From NCBI GenBank assembly GCA_024180945.1, contig JAKSGN010000037.1, positions 625,501-689,500 of the forward strand: a stretch of 64,000 nucleotides of DNA. The letters are read 5' to 3'. The notes under the pieces were generated by a model, which saw only the letters and a program-made list of their open reading frames with translations, did not search any database and was not told the DNA's origin. Positions 18,516 through 64,000 of the stretch are shown here, in pieces. Made by a program: the position numbers and the translations under genes. Each line of letters opens with the position of its first letter. The first letter of the stretch is position 1. Source of the stretch: Macrophomina tecta. Lineage: Eukaryota; Ascomycota; Dothideomycetes; Botryosphaeriales; Botryosphaeriaceae.

Positions 18516-20877
18516 TCAATCCAGCCAGATCTTGTGTCCTTTGCCACTTTCAGGCTCATCCAGAATTGCGGATGATCCGCTGAAGTAACTCTTCTCTAGC
18601 ATCCTCAGGGCCTTTAAACCAAGGTTTTTGAGCTGCAGGGATCCTGTTCGATAAAAGTGACCCTTTTCTCCTGCAGGCTGCATGATGATTCCCACGCCAG
18701 AGAATGTCAAAAGGGGCTGCTTCTGCGCGCTCGAAGTTCCGTTAACATCATCATCATCATCTTCGTCTGTTCCGTCCTCCTCACACTCTTCCTGACTGAC
18801 ATTGTCCTCGTCTTCAATTTCATCTCCGTAACTTCCATCGGCTCCTGCTCCTTCTCTGTTCAATCTCAACACCACGAAACAGCATTCATGGACTGAACTC
18901 GGCAACCGTTCGTCTGGAAAAGCTTCCAACACTGGGGCCTCTGGGTCCATATACGCATTCTGCACCGTCCATTTTCCAGAAACTGTCCCTAAAACAATCT
19001 GAATTTTGCCCACCCATCCCTGGATCGCGATGCTCCAACTCGCCAACTCCGGCGGTTGATCCCCCATATTCGTGACCTGTGAAGCGTTCGACTTCACCGT
19101 CATAGTCGACTGCTCCGAGTCTTGCCTCTTAATTTTGCAACTGCTCCTCCTCTTCCCCGCCTCCACCTGCTGCTCATCCCACAGCCTGAACTGCTCCGCC
19201 CAACTCGAACCCCTCCGCGCACCCAAATCCGGCCTCCCTGGCCTCTCCACGAATTGAAACCTGATCCGGCCGCCCTCATGATTCCTGACAACATACCCCC
19301 TCCTCCGCCCGCCCGCAAACCGATCCCCAACCTTAACCACACCATCCAAGCTCGCCCAGCTCCAACTCGGCGCCCTCAACGGCCTCGGCCTCCACCCCTG
19401 GGCGCCACCCTCCACCCTCCACGCCAACTGCTCCTCCAGCCGATCCTCCCACAGCCCTGCTCCGTACGACTCCCCCAGCGCATCCCGCACCAGCTTCGCA
19501 ATGCCCCATACTGCGACCAGCTTATCAGCGCCGTTTGTCAGCGCGCACGCGGTATAGTTCCGCACCGCGGCGCCCCAGAAGGCCTCGATGCTGTCGTCCG
19601 CAGGGCCGGCCAGGGGCTGCAGCATCGCGCCGGCGTCCTGCAGGCGGGCGCGCCAGTGCCGGTCTGTCGCGGAGAGGGTGTCGAGCGGGGCGGGGAGGCC
19701 GTCTGGGAAGGCTTCGCAGGCGGAGGCTGTGCCGCAGTCCCAGAAGATCTGGCGCGAGGTGAAGTGCAGCAGGCGCGGGGAGAGCAGCCGCTCTTGGAAG
19801 ACCCAGCCGCGGGTGTAGATGGGTGCGGCGAGGAGGGCGGTTTGCCAGAAGGTGGAGGGGAGGATGCGGTAGGTGGTCGCCGGGCGGAAGAGGCGGCGGG
19901 CTTTGGTGGTCTGGTTGTTGGTGTAGGCGGCGGGGAGGATGGAGCGCGGATCACGAAGGCGGAAGAGGCCGCCGCTAGAGTCGGCCGAGTCGGCGGCGGC
20001 GAGGTTGCAGTGCGAATTGCGGTAGACGGCGTGCATGAGGGAGGCTTCGGAGTGGAAGTCGCCGTCGGGGCCTTGGATGATGCAGAGGGAGTCGATCCAA
20101 ATGTAACGCACGTCGAGTGCGAGCCTGGTTATGGTGATGGCCTGTTGGAAGTTTTTGGGGAGCTCGTGCCAGAGTATGCCGCGCGTCGTGAGCTGGGGCT
20201 CGTTTTCAGGGGTGAGGTTGATAAAAGGTTTCTTGCCCCAGCAGTGCGAAAGTGTGGCATATCTGACGCCCCCCAGCTTCTCAGCTTTGGTATCGACTAC
20301 CCGAATGGGGCTGCTGGTAGGTTCGGTAGAAGAACCAATGTCGAGCAGCCGCGTGGGCGTGAATAGTTTGCTCCCATCCTTGCGGCAACCGGAGTGGTTC
20401 TTCTGGCAAATTTCCATCCAGCGCCTGCATTGTGCGATGGATATCGCAGAATCGGAACTTCTCCCTACGGAGTCTTCAGTCGGAATTGCTCCAAGGTCTG
20501 ACCTTAGTGTCAGCACAATTCCTGTTGTCCCAGGAGGATGGCCCGGTGAGCTCACCTTGTTCTTCAAAAATGTAGTATGTCCTCTCCGGAAGTCCTCCTT
20601 GTGAGCCACGATCTGGGCCAGAGATCGGTCGGAAGCTGACTGCAAAGTATTGCGGAGATTCTCTGCTTATTCCGCCCTGTCGACGGATGTTCCAGAAATG
20701 CGACGGTAGCTCAAGCTGAGCGAATGAGGGTGCCCAGTATCCGAGATCTCCATATAGAGTCGAACAAAAGAGACATTGCTCGTCTACAGAGCACTGGAGG
20801 CTCGAGAGATCCTTCTGATGGTAACCCCAAAGTTGACCCGATTCGAATATCGTGGATTGACAGAATTGGCAGATCAT
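18516..20877 (-). CDS. HET-domain (heterokaryon incompatibility) protein
   Basis: Starts MICQFCQSTIFESGQLWGYH; exon 1 (20877-20556) joins exon 2 through a 58-nt intron (20498-20555, GTGAGC...GTCAG), giving 767 aa. The HET domain (about residues 200-350) shows RYATLSHCWGKKPFINLTPE, LPKNFQQAITITRLALDVRY with WIDSLCIIQGPDGDF, and AVYRNSHCNLAAADSADSSG followed by GLFRLRDPR. A later motif, YTRGWVFQERLLSPRLLHF, is also typical. APSWSWASLDG is present downstream. The C-terminal third has a strongly acidic run (DEIEDEDNVSQEECEEDGTD and on). HET proteins can trigger cell death on non-self recognition; no function was tested for this one. It is convergent with the STAND gene, about 220 bp apart, a possible functional pairing. 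Confidence 0.92.
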
Positions 20878-29747: not shown

Positions 29748-31170
29748 GGCGGGCAGCAGTGGTTACAGCGAAGGTGGTCAGAGGCGATGATCAAGCTACG
29801 TCTCTGCTAGCATGGCCGCGAGGGCTGTGGCCCGTGCGCGGGATATCGGCAGGATCGATTGGGCTGCCACATGCGAAGCTCCAGGAAGGATGCCCATGCG
29901 AGCGGGCAGAGCGAGTCATCCAGGGCAAGCGTATTGCGCTCCATCAAGTGGGCTCTCCGCGCTGATGCTTCTGGTACCTGCATTCTCTTTCATGACGACC
30001 CAATGCCGCTTCTGGTTTCGCGAGGAGGTCGTCATCTGGCGCTAGGCGTGGGCTGTCATACAACACCCCTGTCCGGCGGCGGCCGGGCGCTGAGCCGCCT
30101 TCGGCCACGACTATGCGAAACTTCGACGGCGCTCTGCAGAGTTCGCGCGCGGAAAGAAAATGACTCACATGCAACGGCGGCAGGCAGGCGGGCGGCCAAC
30201 GAGAGCGTGCCGATTTTCGCGCCCGGATGTTTTCCGATGGGGTTGTTGGGGTCGAACGGCCGAGCCCGCTGGGTCTTGGGCTAAGACAAGCTCTGCGCAA
30301 AGTCGGCTGAGGCTCCCGCGGAACGAGCCAAGCACAAATCTTTCAGCCGTCCATCAGGCCCGCCCGCCGCTCTCTCCTCCTTCCCACCGCAACACCCTCC
30401 GTCCACAAGGACTTTTTCGCTCCGCCCAACCTCTTGCCTCCGCCGCACCACCTGCGCGACCCTATAAAGCCGCTTGTCCTCGCATCGATATCCAAGTCTG
30501 CTCCGTCCCCTGTGGACTGGCGTCTACGTCACGCACGGTCTCAACCTCTTCCGTAGCCGTGGCGACCGGTCGCTTTCGCTGACCACCACTTCCTCGCCCT
30601 AATCGCGCGTCCGACGAGCTCCGCGCTCCTCGCACTTTCGCTCGCCACCGCGACCCTCCAGGCGCCTCGGCGTCCTATTCCATAAACACCACCAAGTTGG
30701 CGGGCACTCAGGTCTTCAGCTTCTCTTTCATTTACCCCCTTCTCGGCCCACGCATTTGGGTCTGTGGAGGCGACAGGAAGCCGTATGTATCATGGTGGGC
30801 CCGCCGCACCAGGAATGACGTTACTGACCGAGCCTAACAGTCCATAACTGGCCTTCGGTTCCCTCCAATACTCGCACTCGCGCTGACTACAATCATCCGT
30901 AATCCGTACGCTCTCGGTAGCGTTGGCGGGAGGTAATTGCTTACCTCGTACGACCATTGCACGGCTTAGTGTAGGGAAGAACCCTACGCGAAGCCAACCA
31001 GTCAAGTTGATCTCCCTCACGCGGTGAGCGCTCACAAGCGGCTCGCCAAATACAAGCCGCACTTGGCCGCTGCGTTCTCCTGTTCGTCGCGCGTAGTTTA
31101 GAGGAAATATTGCTCCAGCGACACGGTCGTGCCAGTCGCATCAAGCGTCAAATATCGGCAAGCCAGCAAA
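29748..31170. promoter_or_regulatory. Upstream region of the CorA Mg2+ channel gene and spc1
   Basis: 1.4 kb between divergent genes. Frames on either strand (for example 29859-30284 plus) lack domains. The stretch 30330-30740 is pyrimidine-rich with CCTATAAAG near 30460, resembling a promoter/5' leader for the downstream gene; an untranslated first exon and 5' intron around 30780-30840 are possible but unproven. An in-frame GTG at 31129 precedes the true ATG. Confidence 0.45.
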
Positions 31171-33228
31171 ATGACGGACACTCCAAGATCCGAGCACTAT
31201 CCGACCCGGTTCAGCACTCCGGTGTCTGAACTGGACGACCACCGCCACCAGCCAGAGTCAATGCCTCGCATCGACAACACTAGCCCTTCCCACTCCCGCC
31301 GCGGTACCGTTACGAGCATCGCATCGCCCAGGCCTGCGAGGCCCGATCTTCTTTCCGTGAACGACGCATTGGAGCGCCAGGGTATGATTGCGAGGGATTT
31401 CGAGAGCGCGATTGTGGATGAGGATAGGAGCCCCAGCGACCATGGAGACAACCCCACTTTGTTTGGTCGCCGCGGTTCCATTAGCCCCATGGCCAGGAGA
31501 GACACTTTCCGTCGCCCTAGAGATGTGCAGTTGGCCAAGTCGACGAGGTCTCGTGCCTCCTCCAAGTCTACTGGCTCCGTGTCGCCGCCCAACTCGGTCG
31601 ATGCTTTTGCTGATCCACGCCGCCGAGACCGCGCCGGCACCATCACCAGTCAGCGCCCAGGGTCCGAAATCGAATTGCGTCTCCAGCGCACGGTCTCTCA
31701 GGGAACCCACAGGCGCCGCCCGACTTTCAGCGAAGAAAGTCGCCATGGCACCGTCAAGGATGAGACAATGTCACGCCGCAGTTCTGTCGAGGAGGATGTG
31801 TGCTTTCCAGTGGAGGAGACGAGCAAAACGTACAAGATTGACTTTGAAGAGCTGGAGGAGTTCATTGCTTCAAACCAGACCAGAACTCCGGTCATTCCGC
31901 TGTCCCGTAAGCAGAGCAAGGCGAGCATGAACACCCAGCGTTCCAAGCCGAAAATCTTCCACGACCTGCGCCGAAAGTCATCCATGCAATCCCTTCCCAA
32001 GGTTGTTGGCGACAGCATTGAGCACTTTGATCGCCCTGCCGATAGCGGAACTGACCTGGACGAAGAGAAGGCAGATGTGCACATTGAGAACCCGGGCCAC
32101 CTTACCGCCCAGCACGAGGGTCACGTCAACAGATGGGCGTTCTTCTCTTCCGAGATGGATGACACCATCCACGCAACCGACCTTGGTGGACTTCTCATTC
32201 CGGGAGAATCTTTCCGCGACCTTTTCGAGCTTCCAGAGGATACTGGCATGTGGTGGCTTGACATGCTTAACCCGACTGAGGAGGAAGTCTTCGCCATCTG
32301 CAAAGCTTTCAACGTGCACCCTCTCACGCGCGAGGATATTCTCACCCAGGAGGCGCGCGAGAAAGTCGAGCTTTTCCGCTCGTACTACTTCGTCTGTTTC
32401 CGGTCTTTTTACCAAATGGATAAAGAAAGCGAGGACTTCATGGAACCTGTCAACGTCTACGCCGTCGTTTTCCGTGAAGGCCTCCTGACTTTCACATTCG
32501 CGCCCAATCCCCATGCGTCGAACGTGAGGAAGAGAATCAGTCGCCTCAAAGACTACATCTCTCTTAGCGCCGATTGGGTTTGCTACGCCCTTATGTAAGT
32601 TAAAAAAAAAGAGGCCAACATGTCTTCCCCGCTAACCACAGCTTCCAGTGACGACATTGTCGACTCTTTTGGCCCTGTAATCCGCGATATTGAGCACGAA
32701 ACCGATGCCATCGAAGATCAAGTGTTCACTGCACGCGCTGAGGACTCTCGTATTATTCTCCGTGCCATTGGAGAATGCCGCAAGAAGGTCATGTCCATGA
32801 TGCGCCTCCTTGGCGGCAAGGCGGATGTCATCAAGGGTTTTGCCAAACGTTGCAATGAGCAATACAGTGTTGCTCCTCGTGGTGATGTTGGTCTTTATCT
32901 CAGCGATATTCAGGATCACGTCGTTACCATGATGAGTAACCTGTCGCATTTCGAGAAAATGCTGTCCCGCAGCCACTCCAACTACTTGGCGCAGATCTCG
33001 GTCGATAGCCTCAGTCAAGGAAACGCTGTCAACGAGATGCTAGGCAAGATCACAGTCATTGCGACAATCCTCGTTCCACTCAATCTGATCTGTGGTTTGT
33101 TTGGTATGAACGTGCCAGTTCCTGGTGTGAACAGCAGCAGCCTTGGATGGTTCTTTGGAATTCTGGGAGTCATGTGCGCGTTTGTGGTAACCTGCCTTCT
33201 GGTGGCTCGTAAAATGCGGTATGTTTGA
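31171..33228 (+). CDS. CorA/Alr1-type magnesium transporter
   Basis: Plasma-membrane or vacuolar Mg2+ channel of the Alr1/Mnr2 branch. The ATG at 31171 (MTDTPRSEHYPTRFSTPVSE) begins a long Ser/Arg-rich cytosolic N-terminus. The CorA core follows: WAFFSSEMDDTIHATDLGGL, WWLDMLNPTEEEVFAICKAF, HPLTREDILTQEAREKVELF, then a 54-nt intron (32595-32648, phase 2, AT/T giving Ile) and DDIVDSFGPVIRDIEHETDA. The membrane end has LGKITVIATILVPLNLICGL with the signature GMN (FGMNVPVPG), then a second helix WFFGILGVMCAFVVTCLLVA and a short tail RKMRYV. Product 667 aa. Many Ser/Arg sites in the N-terminus suggest phosphoregulation, which is an inference. Confidence 0.94.
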
Positions 33229-55605: not shown

Positions 55606-55950
55606 GTAGAGAGCTTACGCTAGAACCTTTTCTAACACCAATCAAAAAACCCTCGTCAAGTCGTCCTGTTTCATCACGCCTTATGTGCATGCTTCCGCTG
55701 TGGATGCGGATCCTGCCACGAAGCTCGGATCCTGTATGCTCTAGAACGGCAGGAATAAAAAAAAAGTCCACTTTCCACTGCAAATGACTTATTTTTAGCT
55801 GATAGTTGACGATATTCAATGTCTGGGAGGCATTTCTGTCACGTGTAGGCGGCATGCTGACTGCATATTCTGCGCAAGGCTGGAAACCAACTTTCGCATA
55901 CACTCCGAACATTGCCCAAAGGACCTCATCTGCGGACCAGAATATCCGAA
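55606..55950. other. Intergenic region between F-box-like and HET genes
   Basis: 345 nt between two plus-strand genes; an A-run near 55757-55766. No coding sequence is supported. Confidence 0.5.
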
Positions 55951-57883
55951 ATGGCTTCTTTTATCTACCAGGCTCTTCAGCAGCCATTAGGATTCAGGCT
56001 CCTAAAGCTGTACCCGACCGATCTCCGCGTTCGAAGCTGCATCCCACCGGACCAGCTGAAGTACGAAATCATCCACACCAGTCTCGAGCAATTCCCGTCA
56101 TACGAGGCTGTGTCTTACGCCTGGGGGGGCTCCTCAAGGGACCACAAGATCCCACTGCGAATGGGCATAACAATGCAGGTCACGGAAAGCGTCGAGATGC
56201 TGCTGCGCTTCGTCTCGCCAATCTCCCGGACGGGATATCTCTGGATCGATCAGCTGTGCATCAACCAGGGCAATCAAATGGAGCGCGGGCATCAAGTTTC
56301 GATAATGCGCAACATATACAGTGATGCTAAACGAACCATTGTTTGGCTTGGTGAAGCAGACGAGGCGTCAGACCTGATCTTTTCAACCCTTGATGTGATT
56401 GGTCGTCTCGAGGACCGATGCGGGTTCTCAGACAGCGTTTACGACGGAGGCTCCATCTACTCAAACTGGGCGAGGAGAATTCAACCTGAAATCGAACGAC
56501 AGATGAGCTATCATTACCAGAAAATATACATGAGTCCCTGCAAAGCCCATGGGGACATCGTCTGCAATGAAAGGAGCCGGTGCTGCCCCCAGTGTATCAA
56601 TGCCAGATCTGCCAGTCTTGCAAAAGCATTTAACAAGTTTGCATCACGACCTTGGGTAAGCTTTGCACCCCCAATCCTCAATTGGTACCTAAACTAATAC
56701 GTCAATGTAGTTTACCAGGTGTTGGGTGATACAGGAAGTGTGCCTGGCTCGAGAAGTCTTCATGGTTGTAGGAAGCCAAACAATTAGTCCAAGCGACATG
56801 ATAAGGTCCTTCGCTGCCTCGCAATCTATCAAAAAGGCTGTTTCCACCTTGGAAGCTGTGGTTGACGGCCCGAAAACGGAAATTCCATTCGATATCGATT
56901 TATTGCGGACGCTGCATTTCATGCTCGGACTCATCAAAAACATACATAACCGCACAAGTAGCGAATCTTTGGAAACCGGGAGCTTACGTCTGTTTTGCTT
57001 TATTCTCGATGACTTCAGATGCTACTTGGTCCGTGGATACTTCCAAGTGACGGACCCACGCGACATTATCTACTCCGTAATCGGCGTCCATCCGCACGCA
57101 TCTCGGTTTATCCAACCCGATTACACTCTGAGTCGTGAGGAGGTGTACGCAGACGCAACGCAGGCCGTGATAGAAGAGACAGGAAACCTTAGCGTCCTCG
57201 GCATCTGCGACAAATTCCATCTTGACAACTCGAAACTTCGAAGCTGGGCCCCGGACTGGTCAAAAGAGATTAGTTTCAGGCCTATTTGTAGCCCTAAAAG
57301 TCTTCGGTGTTCTGCTTGTGGCGTATTTAGACATCAGATTCAGCCACGAAACATGTCAGGAAGACTCCTGGTGCACGGAACACGGCTTTGTTGTGTATTG
57401 GCAATCCAAGACATTGCTTATGGAAGAATGAGTAGAGCATTCCGTCCAAATGAAGATGACGTCAAACAGAGCTTTGATCATCTTTTTCTAGAAGACACGC
57501 GGGAATGGCTCGGGAGAGTTCGGGATGCTAGCCTACCGCAAGTCACCGACAGACAAATTCTAAAAGCTCTCTGCGGATGCCAGGAGCCTTTTGACGGCTC
57601 ATACGAGCACAATCAGACATGCAGTGAATTAGGTTGCCAGTTTCTGTATTTTGCGGCACAAAGGAGATTGTGTATATCCACAGATGGTCGCTTGTCACTG
57701 GTACCTTGGCACTCAGAGACTGGAGACGAAATTTGGTTACTTTGTGGCTGCCCTGCTCCCGCTGTCTTGAGAAAGGTTGCGGAGGACGAATATCTGTTAA
57801 TTGGGCTGTGTGGATTAGAGGATGCCATGTTTGGAGAAGAGGCCGGCCGTCTCCATTCCGCTCACAGAATTTTCTTAGTGTGA
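55951..57883 (+). CDS. HET-domain (heterokaryon incompatibility) protein
   Basis: True ATG at 55951: MASFIYQALQQPLGFRLLKL. The HET domain begins YEAVSYAWGGSSRDHKIPLR and continues GYLWIDQLCINQGNQMERGH, QVSIMRNIYSDAKRTIVWLG. A 55-nt intron (56656-56710, GTAAGC...TGTAG, phase 0) joins FASRPW to FTRCWVIQEVCLAREVFMVV, the usual ARPWF-RRWVIQE position. The C-terminal region has DPRDIIYSVIGVHP and ADATQAVIEETGNLSVLGIC, typical of this HET class, and ends LRKVAEDEYLLIGLCGLEDA. Product 625 aa and apparently intact. A Cys-rich stretch (CKAHGDIVCNERSRCCPQC) within the domain is unusual. It belongs to a different HET subclass from the protein at 18.5-20.9 kb, as the motifs differ. Confidence 0.93.
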
Positions 57884-58047: not shown

Positions 58048-59163
58048 TTAAAATGCCACGCAAGTCAAGCGCTGCATGTCTCTGATCCCGAACTTGATCC
58101 AATACCCTTTTTGACCATGGCCTATCACGCTGAGGAACCTCCAGAAAACCTCATCAAGTCCAAGAATAGCCTCGCACCCGCGTTCTTTCTCATTGAGTGC
58201 CAAAAAGAGGCTCTCCGGTACCTCCACCGTGCATGCTCTTAGCCGCAACTCCATCAACTCCAACACCATCGTATCCAGCGGCTCAATAAACTCGCGCTCC
58301 ACCTCGTCTACAGCCTCCCGCCTCGGTCTCTCGCCTACACACATGCCATGACCCCACACCGACAAAGATAACTTCACCAAGTTCGGCAACGCCTCCGGCA
58401 CGCCCCGCACAAGCGCGCGAAACACCTCTCGCTCCGCCATCGGCAGCCGCCACGCCTCTCCGCTCCTTCTGTCACAGATATCCCACACCATCTCCACCGC
58501 CGTCACCATCTCCAGCGTCTGCGGCAGCAGGAGCCGCGACAGGTTCATCAGCAACGGCAAGCCGCTCACGTGCAGCACATTGGTCGCATACAGCACCTCC
58601 ACGCCTTCCCGGTACGCCCGCCGACACGCCCGCAGCCAGCCCATCGCGCCCACCTGGCACCGCGCCGGGTGAGCGCCCGCCCACTGCTCGCACGCCGCGA
58701 TTCCGTGCCGGCAGGCGTCGCGCCACAGGCCATCCGCCAGCACGCCGCCCTGGTGCTGCACGGGGACGCGGTGGCACGCAGAGCCCCACCAGTGCCAGCG
58801 TGCGTTCTTGGAGAGCGCGGCGGCATTGCGGGCGCGTTCGTCGAGGTCGCAGTGCGCGCCTGCGCGTGGCGAGCTAGGCGGGCGGAATTCGAGGTCCATG
58901 TGCAGGGTGCGCGCGCCGAAGGCGAGGGTGAGGACGTGTCGGCGGAGCTCGGCCGGGAGGCGCTGGAAGAAGGGGCTATTGGCCGTGGCGGCGGCGGCGG
59001 CGGCGGCGGCAGTGTTCGTGGTTGTGGATGGTGTGAGTGGCCGGGGCCGTTGCGCGAGGAGCACGGGCATGCCGGCGGGGAAGCCTGTTGCAGGGTCGAT
59101 GGTGGTGGTGGCTGGCTTGTTGGCGAGCTTGTCGCGGAGCCACTTCGAGAATTTACGGGGCAT
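58048..59163 (-). CDS. DUF7730-like fungal protein
   Basis: Single-exon frame of 371 aa with ATG at 59163 (MPRKFSKWLRDKLANKPATT). An Ala-run (TNTAAAAAAAATANSPFF) precedes an F-box-like LPAELRRHVLTLAFG. Then follow WHWWGSACHR, GLWRDACRHG and MGWLRACRRAYREGVEVLYA with TNVLHVSG, LLMNLSRLLLPQTLEMVTAV and EMVWDIC. This series is what I recall for the fungal DUF7730 family, whose function is unknown; the family is common next to HET genes and often expanded. No signal peptide or membrane segment. Confidence 0.78.
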   Translation of the reverse strand: MPRKFSKWLRDKLANKPATTTIDPATGFPAGMPVLLAQRPRPLTPSTTTNTAAAAAAAATANSPFFQRLPAELRRHVLTLAFGARTLHMDLEFRPPSSPRAGAHCDLDERARNAAALSKNARWHWWGSACHRVPVQHQGGVLADGLWRDACRHGIAACEQWAGAHPARCQVGAMGWLRACRRAYREGVEVLYATNVLHVSGLPLLMNLSRLLLPQTLEMVTAVEMVWDICDRRSGEAWRLPMAEREVFRALVRGVPEALPNLVKLSLSVWGHGMCVGERPRREAVDEVEREFIEPLDTMVLELMELRLRACTVEVPESLFLALNEKERGCEAILGLDEVFWRFLSVIGHGQKGYWIKFGIRDMQRLTCVAF

Positions 59164-59384
59164 TCTTCTTCTAGGCGAACAGTGTTTATGGTAATCTGGT
59201 GTTCGGTGTCAAAGGTCCGTTGGCTGGACAAGATGTTGGGGAAAATCTATTTACACGTAATCCTCGGGCGGGGACCATCCTTCAGAATAATCACCGCGCT
59301 AGCGACCACTACCCCTTCTCAGTCGAACAAACTTGCTTGACGATTCCCCGGGTAAGGTCGCCTGCTCATGAGTATAGCTCAACC

Positions 59385-61378
59385 CTACTCTTGATTGCCT
59401 TCGCCGAACACAAAATTAAGGACCCTCGGGTGGCGTGCTTCTACGACAGTCGCGGTGAGAAAAACAGTCAAAAGAAGAACGTACGAAACACACAGCGCCA
59501 CTACATGCCCAGCCTCTCCCGGAATGACAGACATGCTAAAGACCCCCTAAGGCCATGTTAGAGTTAACTAGACTTCCAGGCATTGATAATCCTTTTCTTA
59601 CCGTTGCGAGAGAGAGGGGAAGATAGAGCTATAAATACGTCAGTGCTGACCTGGTCAAAGCCCTACGGTTGCGGTTTGATTCACATACAACCGTCATTTT
59701 CGTAAGGATGCCAATGTTTTCTCCTTGTCTAGTGGTTGTTGCGCTCTCGCGAAGAGCAGAAGCGTTCACAAGCTGGTCAGTCAGCATGCGATACCTGTTG
59801 AGGGATGCTGGGCTTTTTCGTCGATTTATAGTGTAGCGAAATCGGACTTACACCGTCGAGCTTGCTTTGAAAGAGATCTAATTTTTGCGCAAGTAGTTTA
59901 CGGAAGAATCTCAATTGGGATATTCCTTTACGAGCTTCGGCGAGGTGCTCGCCCCATTTTCTCAAATACTCGTCACTGCCCTTAGTCTCAAGATGGACCA
60001 CATCTCCGCCTTCAAAAGCGTCCCAAGCAGCGATAAGGTTTTCCAGTGTGTCACGCAAACGTCTGATGGCTTGCACCGTCATGGTGAGTTTTTCGGTATG
60101 CGGGAATTGGGGTTCGTCAATGAAGGAATTCGTGGATTCGCGTTCCTCTTGCTGCACGGGATTAGTATGGCGTATTCAAGCACGCTTCACCAGCCGTCTT
60201 ACATAATTGTCCATGCGTTCTTCGAAAGTATTGATCAATAACGTCCATTCTTGTGTTGCCTGCGTGACACGCGCCGCCAAGACCCAAAGGAAGTACTCGC
60301 GCGGGTTCCACAAGGGATATCTCAGCCAGCGAGTACCTCCTGTGGCTGGATCGCGCCCGTAAGGATCATTTGGCGTTGTCTTGAAATAGTCTTCGTAGTC
60401 TTCTTCTTTCCCGAAGTAGCTGTCAACAAAACAGTACCCTGTCCATACCCATTCGTCAACCCCTGTGACAAGGAGAGAGATCTGGCATTCGTGGAAGTAT
60501 AATTCTCGACCATCGGATAGAGGTAGCAAGCGGGTACTTCTCAGTCGTCTTCCTCGAACTGACCTGGGGTCACTGTTTGCCGACCCTTCTCGTAGCGCAA
60601 AAAAAGTGATGTGGAATTCAAGGTTGAAGATGAGTCCTCCCTGAAAGTGTCAGCACACATAAATACGTGGATAATATAGGCTACTTACAGGGCCAAAGTG
60701 AATAGCAAAGCTAGGCCTGAAGAGTATGTGCTGGCTCAGAAAACTGCGAAGGACATCCAACGACAGCGTTGAGCTCGTTTCAACTAGCGAAAAGACACAA
60801 TCTGGGGTGATATTCGCAATGTATCTGCAACAGCCCCTGATTAGTACGAGGATGTCCTCCAACATCATGTGTCTTACATTGTTCTCCTTTCCGCACGAAT
60901 CGAAAGTCTCTGCGATTTGGTTAGCTGTGCTTGATCTTGCAACTCCCAACTGATCCCGGGGCCCTCTGACGTCGCATAATAGGCGTTCCCTCAATTGTTC
61001 AGCTGATAACTTCTCCGTGAAGCGGTGGTTACCCAGCGGAGGGTATGACATATACCCATTGTTCTGTCCTTTTCCACCTTCAGAATCCCATTTTCTGGCC
61101 ACGGTAACGCCTGAGCCTGCGGTGTCATCACATCTATCATCCAATAATACGACACCGCAGCGCTCCAGATCTGTCGTCGTAACATGGAAAAACCGTGCCA
61201 AATGCGCATAGAGCGAGGATCCTGGGGGCTGCAAATTGCCTTTTCGGAAGGATAGGAACCTCTCTATAATCTCTTTTCTCTGGGTGGGTTCTGTAAAATG
61301 CTTGATCGATTCAGCCTTGTGTAGATGAGGGCGACGATCTGCAAACCGAAGGTTCCAGGCTTCGGCAGTGTCAGACAT
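59385..61378 (-). CDS. CorA-like membrane protein, complete copy (copy A)
   Basis: Eight exons joined by GT-AG introns at 60910-60970, 60825-60877, 60641-60688, 60152-60202, 59773-59851, 59629-59688 and 59547-59601 give 528 aa with all phases closing. N-terminal: MSDTAEAWNLRFADRRPHLH, VVLLDDRCDD, then RAERRTIYIANITPDC. The middle is helical (DPATGGTRWLRYPLWNPREY, RFFRKLLAQKLDLFQSKLDG). LVNASALRESATTTRQGENI leads into a first membrane segment LTKMTVLYLPLSLATGVFSM and a second GHVVALCVSYVLLLTVFLTA, with a short cytosolic tail. This is the fungal CorA-like group (PF01544-type topology); the GMN motif is absent (VFSM in its place), so Mg2+ transport is doubtful. It is head-to-head with a Cys-rich gene and has a truncated paralogue at 62217-62884. 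Confidence 0.85.
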
Positions 61379-61789
61379 TGGAAAAAGAGATTCGGACTGT
61401 GGTGTCTACTCGTGAAAGTTAGGAATGCCTGTAAAGAGGGTGCGAAGCTAATCCTTATCATAAAGAAGAAAATCGACGACAGGGCTGCACAGCCACTTGC
61501 TGCCTAAAATTGACAGGGAATAAATGCAATGGCTCGCTTAAGAAGACTTTATAGGACAAGCGCAGGGATTTGGGCGGGGTATCTCATGGCCCATCAGTTG
61601 ATTCTGCCAGCCTTTTACAACAGGCCAAGTCATCGTTTAAGGTACAAATCTAGACAAAACCTCAAGCATCGGAATGTTCTTTTTAATAAAGCAGAGCAAA
61701 GTGGTCTTCAAGGACACCATGGTGGTCAGTTGCATTATACTTTCATTCAGAACTGCGCCACTATCTGCCAATCCGGTGCGCTTGCCCAA
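61379..61789. promoter_or_regulatory. Divergent region between CorA-like copy A and Cys-rich copy 1
   Basis: About 0.4 kb between the CorA-like start and the first candidate exon of the Cys-rich gene; the equivalent spacing in the second pair is also about 0.4 kb. It presumably holds a bidirectional promoter. Some part may be 5' exon of the Cys-rich gene, whose start codon I could not fix. Confidence 0.4.
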
Positions 61790-61800
61790 ATGCCTCTTCC

Positions 61801-62172
61801 TTGACGCCGCTTTTCATCGGGCAAACTTGGACTTATGTAAAACCCCATGGCGACCTCACAGATGTGTCTGCTAACTCAAGATCTCTGCTCCGAACAGTGC
61901 AATCCCGCTTGCCGGCACATAAACCCTTCTTCAGGTGGTTTAGACAAGTGTGCTGGCTCTGGGTGCAGCCATACGAGATGCGCAAACTGCACCTGCAGTC
62001 GCGAAGCGCCATTGGGACAATACCAGGGATTTCTCCTTGACTGCCATGCCGCGTGCCCGTATGGCGCTGGTCTTGATTGCGTAAGTCAAGCAAACGCCAT
62101 CATTCGCATCTCACATAACGAAAATAGCAGTTCCAATGCAGTTCACCAAGTTTGACTGCCTTAGATCTTTAA
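61801..62172 (+). pseudogene. Cys/His-rich zinc-module gene, degraded copy (copy 1)
   Basis: Splice-aware reading gives PLFIGQTWTY / (intron 61837-61897, 61 nt, phase 0) / CNPACRHINPSSGGLDKCAG, SGCSHTRCANCTCSREAP and HAACPYGAGLDC / (intron 62081-62127, phase 0) / QFQCSSPSLTALDL-stop at 62172. The first module keeps C-x3-C ... C-x4-C-x-H-x2-C-x2-C, suggesting a zinc-binding fold, but the residue before the first intron is Tyr where copy 2 has Cys, and the second module is cut short. No initiator ATG is in frame in the first exon. It lies between the two CorA-like copies and is probably decayed, though an unusual active gene is possible. Confidence 0.45.
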
Positions 62173-62216
62173 TTTTCTATGTGCGGTCATTGGCGCTGTG
62201 CATATCGTAGATCTTA

Positions 62217-62884
62217 TCAGGATAGACGAATAAACAGGTGGATCAGGTTGGTGGAACTTGCAAGGATGATCTCCGGTGTGGCATTGGCTGCATAACTACT
62301 GGAATTAGCGAGTAAGTTCGGATAGCAGGTTACTCACATGACTCTCTTTCCAGGGTTGTAATCGTTTCGCTTGAGCATGTTAACATCCTTCCGCCGTGAA
62401 CGATAGGTACGATTCTTGCCTTGAGTCTCATCTGATTTCTGAATTCTTGTACGCTGAGGGCCTTACTGATGGCCATGTCTCCTCGTGGAGGGTGATCCAT
62501 ATATCCACACTGGCTGGGGTCAATGGGGATGCCCTGGCCGGGTGGCTTTTCTGTTTTGGAATCCCATAGTCGTGTTGAGTTATTGCCTCCGGTGCTATCG
62601 CATCGGTCGTCCAACAATATTACCTGATTTTGTCGTGGATCAGGTGGAACAAGTGCCAAAAAATCACTCAGGCTTGCATATAGAAGAGTTTCGGGAGGAT
62701 CCAGCTTCCTGCTTCGAAAATTGAGAAATCTGAATATGAGGACAGCTCGCTCGTCCTGCAGGTCCACGCCTCTTCCGAAATCGAAGACTCCGTCGGGAAC
62801 ATCTTTGAGATGCAAATTCTCGCTGTTATGGAGCATCCGCCTCTGCCTGCCATATGACATATCCCAGGCTACAGCTGCTTGCAT
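62217..62884 (-). pseudogene. CorA-like membrane protein, 3'-truncated copy (copy B)
   Basis: Start ATG at 62884 (MQAAVAWDMSYGRQRRMLHN) aligns with copy A's start; an upstream frame to 62998 begins with TTG only. Shared blocks: LLYASLSDF versus SLYAHLARF, ILLDDRCD, RLWDSKTE, GYMDHPPRG, LSVQEFRNQMRLK. Intron 1 (62370-62419) appears to be GC-AG (AAG/GCAAGA...CTCAAG, phase 0) at the same place as copy A's first intron. The next exon is 32 nt in both copies (62369-62338). Intron 2 (62299-62337) is only 39 nt, phase 2. The last piece SYAANATPEIILASSTNLIH matches YIANITPDCVFSLVETSSTL, then TGA at 62217. Everything after that, including both membrane helices, is missing; Cys-rich copy 1 lies immediately beyond. 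Confidence 0.72.
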
Positions 62885-63294
62885 TCCGCCTGACGGCACC
62901 CTGTCAGGGTCGGCAGACTCGGGGGGCTCGGTGAACTTACTGGTGTATTCGTAAGGTAGTGCGGCGTTGTCGACTAAAGCCTCTTCGAGCAAGGTCAAAC
63001 TTTCGGAGAAGCAGAGTTCCTCAACGAAGGTACAAGAGGACCCTTGAGTGTCAATAGAAATCCATGGTTACGCAAGGCTGTGGTGATTCCTGTGGATACG
63101 TTGTCGTGCTCTTATTCGTTCGCTACTCCCTGTTCATGCAGTCATATCAATAGGTGGTTGTGCCAAGCTGATCACATGCGCCAAAGACTCCTCATTTTGC
63201 ATTTCAACTTCTCAGCCTGATCATACCACAGAACACTCCTTTATACAGTCTGGATATTGTTCCGCGAAGTTGTTTCGCGGAGGTCCTCTTGTTC

Positions 63295-63759
63295 ATGATG
63301 CTGAATTCACCGGAGAAAAAGTTTTCGTCCCGGTCATGTCGGTCCACGCACTGCTACTATTATTTGACCTTACCTTCTGGTTGTTATGCCACTGCCACTA
63401 CACTCAGACAGGATAATTGGATTTGCGTCAGTTTGTCCGCCGCAGTAAGGACTGTTGAACTGACTGCGATCAGTGTAATAAAAACTGTAACGCAACAAAT
63501 TCAGGCGAGCGAACAGAATGCGAGCGATGTAAGCACGAGCAATGCGCTTTATGTCCGTATGAGCAGGAATACAAACAGCAAGCTGACGGTGTGGAAGTCT
63601 GGTATTGCGTGAGTGACTCTATCTTCCCCTAGCTTTGAGATGCCTTGAATTACTGAGCCAACTTAGTGCTTTTGTTCGCACGGACCATATCCTGTTGAGA
63701 TGTATGGTGCGTGTTACAATTGCCAGCATGGTCGTTGTGCTTATTGCAAGGTTGATTGA
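63295..63759 (+). CDS. Small Cys/His-rich protein with two zinc-like modules (copy 2)
   Basis: ATG at 63295 (MMLNSPEKKFSSRSCRSTHC); a second ATG follows at 63298. Exon 1 ends LRQDNWIC; intron 63427-63473 (GTCAGT...ATCAG, 47 nt, phase 0); exon 2 begins CNKNCNATNSGERTECERCK and continues HEQCALCPYEQEYKQQADGV, ending EVWYC; intron 63609-63666 (GTGAGT...CTTAG, 58 nt, phase 0); exon 3 is CFCSHGPYPVEMYGACYNCQ then HGRCAYCKVD and TGA. Each module has W-x-C/C ... C-x2-C-x-H-x2-C-x2-C, and each intron falls between two adjacent Cys codons. Product about 106 aa. The protein is probably zinc-binding. I recall similar unnamed fungal proteins but no assigned function. The exon 1 boundaries are less certain than the modules. 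Confidence 0.6.
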
Positions 63760-64000
63760 TGTGAGTAATGGTTACGAGTTCACATGTCTCCGGTTCCTTA
63801 AAGCAGTGCCGGGTCACTCTGGGCAATGTGTCCTTGTTTAACAGCATGTAAACTTTTCCTCCCTTGCAACATTTTAAACAAAGGTCTCTTTCGTGTAGTA
63901 AGTAGCCTGTCCTGTAATGAGCACCTGGATCACGTAACTCTATCGTTACTTTCACTTGTAAGAAATGCGCCCTGAATCGAGTATTCCTTTGAGGGCACAA
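63760..64000. other. Window end, no gene seen
   Basis: 241 nt downstream of the Cys-rich gene. A minus-strand frame runs off the window edge (64000 to 63650) but is largely antisense to the Cys-rich exon 3 and has no recognised domain. Confidence 0.4.

Follow-up and report, generated by a model that had tools for sequence, protein, structure and literature searches.

An apparent old tandem duplication of a divergent CorA-like and Cys/His-rich gene pair in Macrophomina tecta

The stretch analyzed here (the window) is 64,000 nucleotides of the Macrophomina tecta genome, corresponding to bases 625501-689500 of contig C31 in an assembly of 54.1 Mb and 37 contigs. Toward its right end lie two adjacent units, each composed of a minus-strand CorA-like gene and a plus-strand gene for a Cys/His-rich protein that diverge from one another. 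In unit 1 the intact CorA-A diverges from the decayed Cys-A, and in unit 2 the truncated CorA-B diverges from the apparently intact Cys-B. The first-pass annotation had proposed two adjacent head-to-head units with one damaged gene in each, leaving one apparently intact gene of each kind, and the splice models, homology and shared introns bear this out. Its estimate of about 0.4 kb between the divergent genes agrees with the 410 nt of unit 2; the spacing in unit 1 can be given only as a minimum of 311 nt. The surviving CorA-A and Cys-B start 1.9 kb apart and have no common divergent promoter, because each sits in a different unit.

59385..61378, minus strand: CorA-A, intact CorA-like gene (splice model; 99% identity to MPH_06677; PF01544 26.4 bits against a cut-off of 27)
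61378-60971, 60909-60878, 60836-60689, 60640-60203, 60151-59852, 59772-59689, 59628-59602, 59546-59385, minus strand: CorA-A exons (splice model)
61379..61689, no strand: intergenic DNA between the diverging CorA-A and Cys-A of unit 1 (minimum extent, at least 311 nt)
61690..62211, plus strand: Cys-A, decayed Cys-rich gene (splice model; shuffle test against Cys-B)
62217..62884, minus strand: CorA-B, truncated CorA-like gene (splice model; homology to CorA-A)
62885..63294, no strand: intergenic DNA between the diverging CorA-B and Cys-B of unit 2 (410 nt)
63295..63759, plus strand: Cys-B, apparently intact Cys/His-rich gene (splice model; C32 copy; MPH_06680 overlap)

Gene models of the two units

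The CorA-A model has eight exons (408, 32, 148, 438, 300, 84, 27 and 162 nt) and seven GT-AG introns of 41-79 nt, and encodes 532 residues. CorA-B is modeled with exons at 62884-62411, 62369-62338 and 62298-62217 (474 nt, 32 nt and a third exon that reaches and includes the stop codon); because the stop comes after 195 residues, the protein lacks the C-terminal channel half. In both genes exon 2 is 32 nt long and flanked by phase-0 and phase-2 introns, and both products contain LLDDRCD, as had been noted from the sequence at the outset. The common start M-x3-x-AW, also proposed then, is correct in that both copies begin with M...AW, although the spacing is M-x5-AW in CorA-A and M-x4-AW in CorA-B. 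The two proteins align with a local score of 208, where 500 shuffles go no higher than 54, and 60 of 151 aligned residues are identical (40%). An N-terminal tree of six sequences joins CorA-A and CorA-B with a support of 0.845 and places a Diplodia protein outside, weakly favoring a duplication after the split from the Diplodia lineage. A model that treats 60837-60970 of CorA-A as coding was replaced by the two-intron model, which yields the 32-nt exon common to CorA-B.

CorA-A carries two C-terminal hydrophobic segments, and its predicted structure resembles the CorA, ZntB and MRS2 folds. These features, and a PF01544 score just below the curated cut-off, agree with the first-pass description of a CorA-like membrane protein; the score nevertheless does not reach the cut-off, and the GMN motif is absent. 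Among four relatives, P0007 passes (28.0 bits), and P0005 (26.8), P0003 (23.8) and P0002 (18) fail. A sequence search of the PDB with the CorA alignment gives no match at E ≤ 1. At the position of GMN, which closes the first transmembrane segment (TM1) of Mg2+ channels, CorA-A reads FSMSVIP, that is, SMS. GMN is kept in none of the seven family proteins having that segment (eight aligned, MS6 included), yet it is seen at no fewer than three other CorA loci of the genome (the motif pattern was printed for 5 of 12 loci). Because SMS replaces the GMN selectivity motif, CorA-A is probably not a housekeeping Mg2+ channel.

The counterpart of CorA-A in Macrophomina phaseolina MS6, MPH_06677, matches it at 382 of 383 residues over the common part. 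The MPH_06677 model starts later and, by the exon model presented here, reads the intron at 60877-60837 as coding; its UniRef name begins 'Mg2+ transporter protein Co...'. The Diplodia relative P0002 is named 'transcription factor sef1', a name unsuited to its sequence. The window contains a second CorA-type gene (31102-33225, plus strand), in which GMN is present (LFGMNVPVPG); between its two open frames stands a TAA (32596-32598) that, being part of a GTAAGT-like donor, is probably intronic.

Cys-B is modeled with exons at 63295-63426, 63474-63608 and 63667-63759 and encodes 119 residues. The protein contains the module W-x-C-C...C-x2-C-x-H-x2-C-x2-C twice, and in the gene each W-x-C is followed directly by a phase-0 intron. 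Three segments of Cys-A (up to 61836, 61898-62080 and 62131-62211) keep both Cys-B intron sites and the Cys pattern. Phase-0 introns common to the two copies had been described earlier as lying just before the Cys that begins each module; the shared sites stand, and their position is refined to right after W-x-C. The decay of Cys-A is evident at several points. Its first segment, 61690-61836, is an open frame without Met, the 5' limit being merely the edge of that frame. The first W-x-C has become W-T-Y and the second L-D-C, a Cys is lost in module 2, and an in-frame TAA occupies 62170-62172.

The alignment of Cys-A with Cys-B scores 66, which none of 2000 shuffles reaches (maximum 65); leaving out the module-2 remnant lowers the score to 59, and one shuffle in 500 attains it. 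The same test pairing Cys-A with three further copies from the genome gives no significant score, the values being reached by 327, 77 and 206 of 1000 shuffles each. Weighing against the common origin of Cys-A and Cys-B, a whole-genome search with either copy does not list the other at E ≤ 1. The sequence similarity of Cys-A and Cys-B is thus weak on its own, and the common introns therefore bear much of the case.

For the reading frame of Cys-B, the stronger support comes from contig C32, where an uninterrupted frame at C32:1278563 is 70% identical to the last 40 residues of Cys-B (exons 2 and 3 joined). The MS6 protein MPH_06680 spans the Cys-B DNA in another frame, because intron 1 is read as coding, and differs from the window at five residues. 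Placed in the spliced Cys-B frame, these differences amount to two silent changes, one intronic change and two residue changes. This comparison lends the spliced frame modest support, since it covers only those differences that show in the annotated frame.

Age of the duplication and dispersal of the two families

A DNA repeat search over 59000-64000 finds nothing longer than 24 nt between the units, although gapped or very diverged repeats can escape such a search. The repeat of the units is visible at the protein and intron level only. Since no repeat above 24 nt links the units, the tandem duplication of the pair appears to be old; a recent event is ruled out by the same result and by the 40% identity of the CorA-like copies. 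That the pair was duplicated as a unit, as first proposed, is supported by homology and by the common introns. Damage by repeat-induced point mutation (RIP) can be dismissed as well, the TpA/ApT ratio in 2-kb bins being 0.68-0.69 where the RIP threshold is about 0.9. Cys-module matches in the DNA right of the window include no third unit. Both survivors are present in MS6, as MPH_06677 and MPH_06680, and the contig given for either gene has a length of 148,684 bases.

The proposal that the two genes form a functional module is not borne out in this genome within the flanks searched. None of 12 other CorA-like loci (11 with their surrounding 10-kb stretches, plus the second CorA gene inside the window) has a Cys module beside it at E ≤ 0.01, the best match having an E of 0.2. 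Decayed Cys copies would escape this profile, because it also fails to reach Cys-A. Reciprocally, this CorA family is found at E ≤ 1 beside none of six other Cys-module loci, the DNA covered being 10 kb at three of them and 3.1 kb (about 1.5 kb on each side) at the others. These further Cys-module copies lie on C32, C3, C35, C29 (two) and, weakly, C6.

Beyond the genome, the Cys module leaves few traces. Pfam returns no family for partial Cys-B and Cys-A (E ≤ 1) or for full Cys-B and protein P0009 (E ≤ 5), and a homologue search with the partial, 80-residue Cys-B gives no candidate. A public protein search with a profile of three genome Cys copies finds two Macrophomina proteins only; the search needs common 5-residue words and similar length, so this result does not establish that the module is absent outside Macrophomina. 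For P0009, the PDB sequence search gives no match at E ≤ 10, and the structure prediction is uninformative (predicted local distance difference test, pLDDT, of 33). The zinc-binding partner suggested in the first-pass annotation fits the Cys/His pattern but finds no Pfam domain match.

Competing explanations and genomic setting

On balance, we consider it reasonably probable that an old tandem duplication copied an ancestral divergent pair, consisting of a CorA-fold protein with two transmembrane segments and a small Cys/His-rich protein, and that the copies then decayed in a complementary manner. CorA-B would have lost its channel half and Cys-A its modules, leaving CorA-A and Cys-B as the single apparently working representatives of the two kinds. 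CorA-A most likely still yields an oligomeric membrane protein with a CorA fold, which would more likely act as a channel of altered selectivity or as a membrane sensor or scaffold. Both modules of Cys-B most likely fold around zinc, and the protein probably serves as a small intracellular adaptor. The adjacency of CorA-A and Cys-B may be only ancestral. Judged from sequence, the duplication is real but for the most part ordinary; its parts are of known kinds, and any function of the pair is putative.

Another account, which we think unlikely but worth keeping in view, takes CorA-A for an ordinary transporter of divalent cations and Cys-B for a gene unrelated to it, with both adjacency and duplication accidental. 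The CorA-like fold and the near-cut-off PF01544 score suit it, as do the dispersal of the Cys modules and the lack of pairing in the flanks searched, at 0 of 6 Cys-module and 0 of 12 CorA-like loci; the absence of GMN from every family protein with that segment, when other CorA loci of the genome show it, argues against it. We can hardly credit the view that all four frames are decaying remnants with no function. Two of them, CorA-B and Cys-A, are plainly broken, but CorA-A is open through eight exons and nearly invariant in MS6, and the 2-kb bins show no RIP-like composition.

Nonself recognition (vegetative incompatibility) offers another explanation, in which CorA-A would act as a sensor at the membrane or carry out cell death, with the linked Cys-rich protein as its partner. 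It finds a precedent in mimpvic32, a CorA-like gene linked to vegetative incompatibility by bulk segregant analysis in Morchella importuna (PMC8940278), and two-gene incompatibility loci exist in het-B of Podospora (PMC10890737) and cwr-1/cwr-2 of Neurospora (PMC9550227); the portion of PMC12720139 considered merely names a CorA-like gene in a table of genes near single-nucleotide polymorphisms. Within the window, about 3 kb separate CorA-A from a HET-domain match, and the accessory block with HET genes anticipated in the first-pass annotation holds in that two are present:

55861-57883, plus strand: HET-domain gene (HET match)
18519-20666, minus strand: HET-domain gene (HET match)

The association itself exceeds chance only weakly. 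HET matches fall within 5 kb at 2 of 13 CorA-like loci, for which the chance is about 0.03 (0.034 for 13 loci and 0.030 for 12, assuming an even spread); the count comes from match lists compared by eye, the test itself is a post hoc choice, and HET genes are common, with 125 matches (matches, not genes) in 54 Mb. Moreover, CorA-A differs from MS6 at 1 of 383 residues, albeit in a sample of two strains; balancing selection should instead have produced divergent haplotypes. The gene mimpvic32 is only a putative relative of the CorA-A subfamily, and Morchella barrages also form between strains with the same alleles (PMC8940278, as far as the sections considered go). We therefore rate nonself recognition as quite improbable for this pair, and its link to CorA-A and Cys-B as a lead only. 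Narrower still, and very doubtful, is the idea that a GMN-less CorA and a zinc-module protein make up a dedicated two-component membrane module for sensing or cell death, a haplotype-like pair in nonself recognition that parallels the Morchella candidate.

Other features of the surroundings deserve mention. A 1053-residue CorA-like frame within C7:518500-528499 scores 30.0 bits with PF01544 and is followed, about 0.6 kb past its end, by a HET match. Between the nearer HET gene and CorA-A lies a frame of DUF7730/2EXR type (58051-59208, minus strand). To the right of the window, at 65226-80441, aconitase-, isopropylmalate-synthase- and isopropylmalate-dehydrogenase-like frames adjoin ankyrin, two P450 and one short-chain dehydrogenase (SDR) frames, which together suggest a biosynthetic cluster that includes enzymes resembling those of the leucine pathway.

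The favored history, an ancestral pair duplicated and then decaying in complementary fashion, would document an old two-gene duplication with complementary loss in a plant-pathogenic fungus. It also suggests that the public models of two crop-pathogen genes, MPH_06677 and MPH_06680, need correcting, and it draws attention to a fungal CorA-like family that lacks the Mg2+ filter. The reported link of a CorA-like gene of another fungus to vegetative incompatibility makes the recognition question testable.

Comparison with known systems

The resemblance of CorA-A to mimpvic32 is by description only. According to the parts of PMC8940278 covered, mimpvic32 has a PF01544 CorA-like domain and eight introns, against seven in CorA-A, and encodes 765 residues in the text or 773 in the table; these parts mention no Cys-rich partner. 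The CorA family PF01544 itself includes the fungal ALR/MNR2 type, as the portion of PMC4945025 considered describes. CorA-A shares with this family the C-terminal helices and the two hydrophobic segments, is predicted to have a similar fold, and differs from it by SMS in place of GMN, by its sub-cut-off score and by a long N-terminal region without a PF01544 match. The RanBP2-type zinc finger has the pattern W-x-C-x2-C...C-x2-C. Cys-B departs from it in its spacing, in the extra Cys after W-x-C, in the added C-x-H-x2-C-x2-C and in the lack of a Pfam match, whereas its module 2 has the same W-x-C-x2-C followed by a later C-x2-C.

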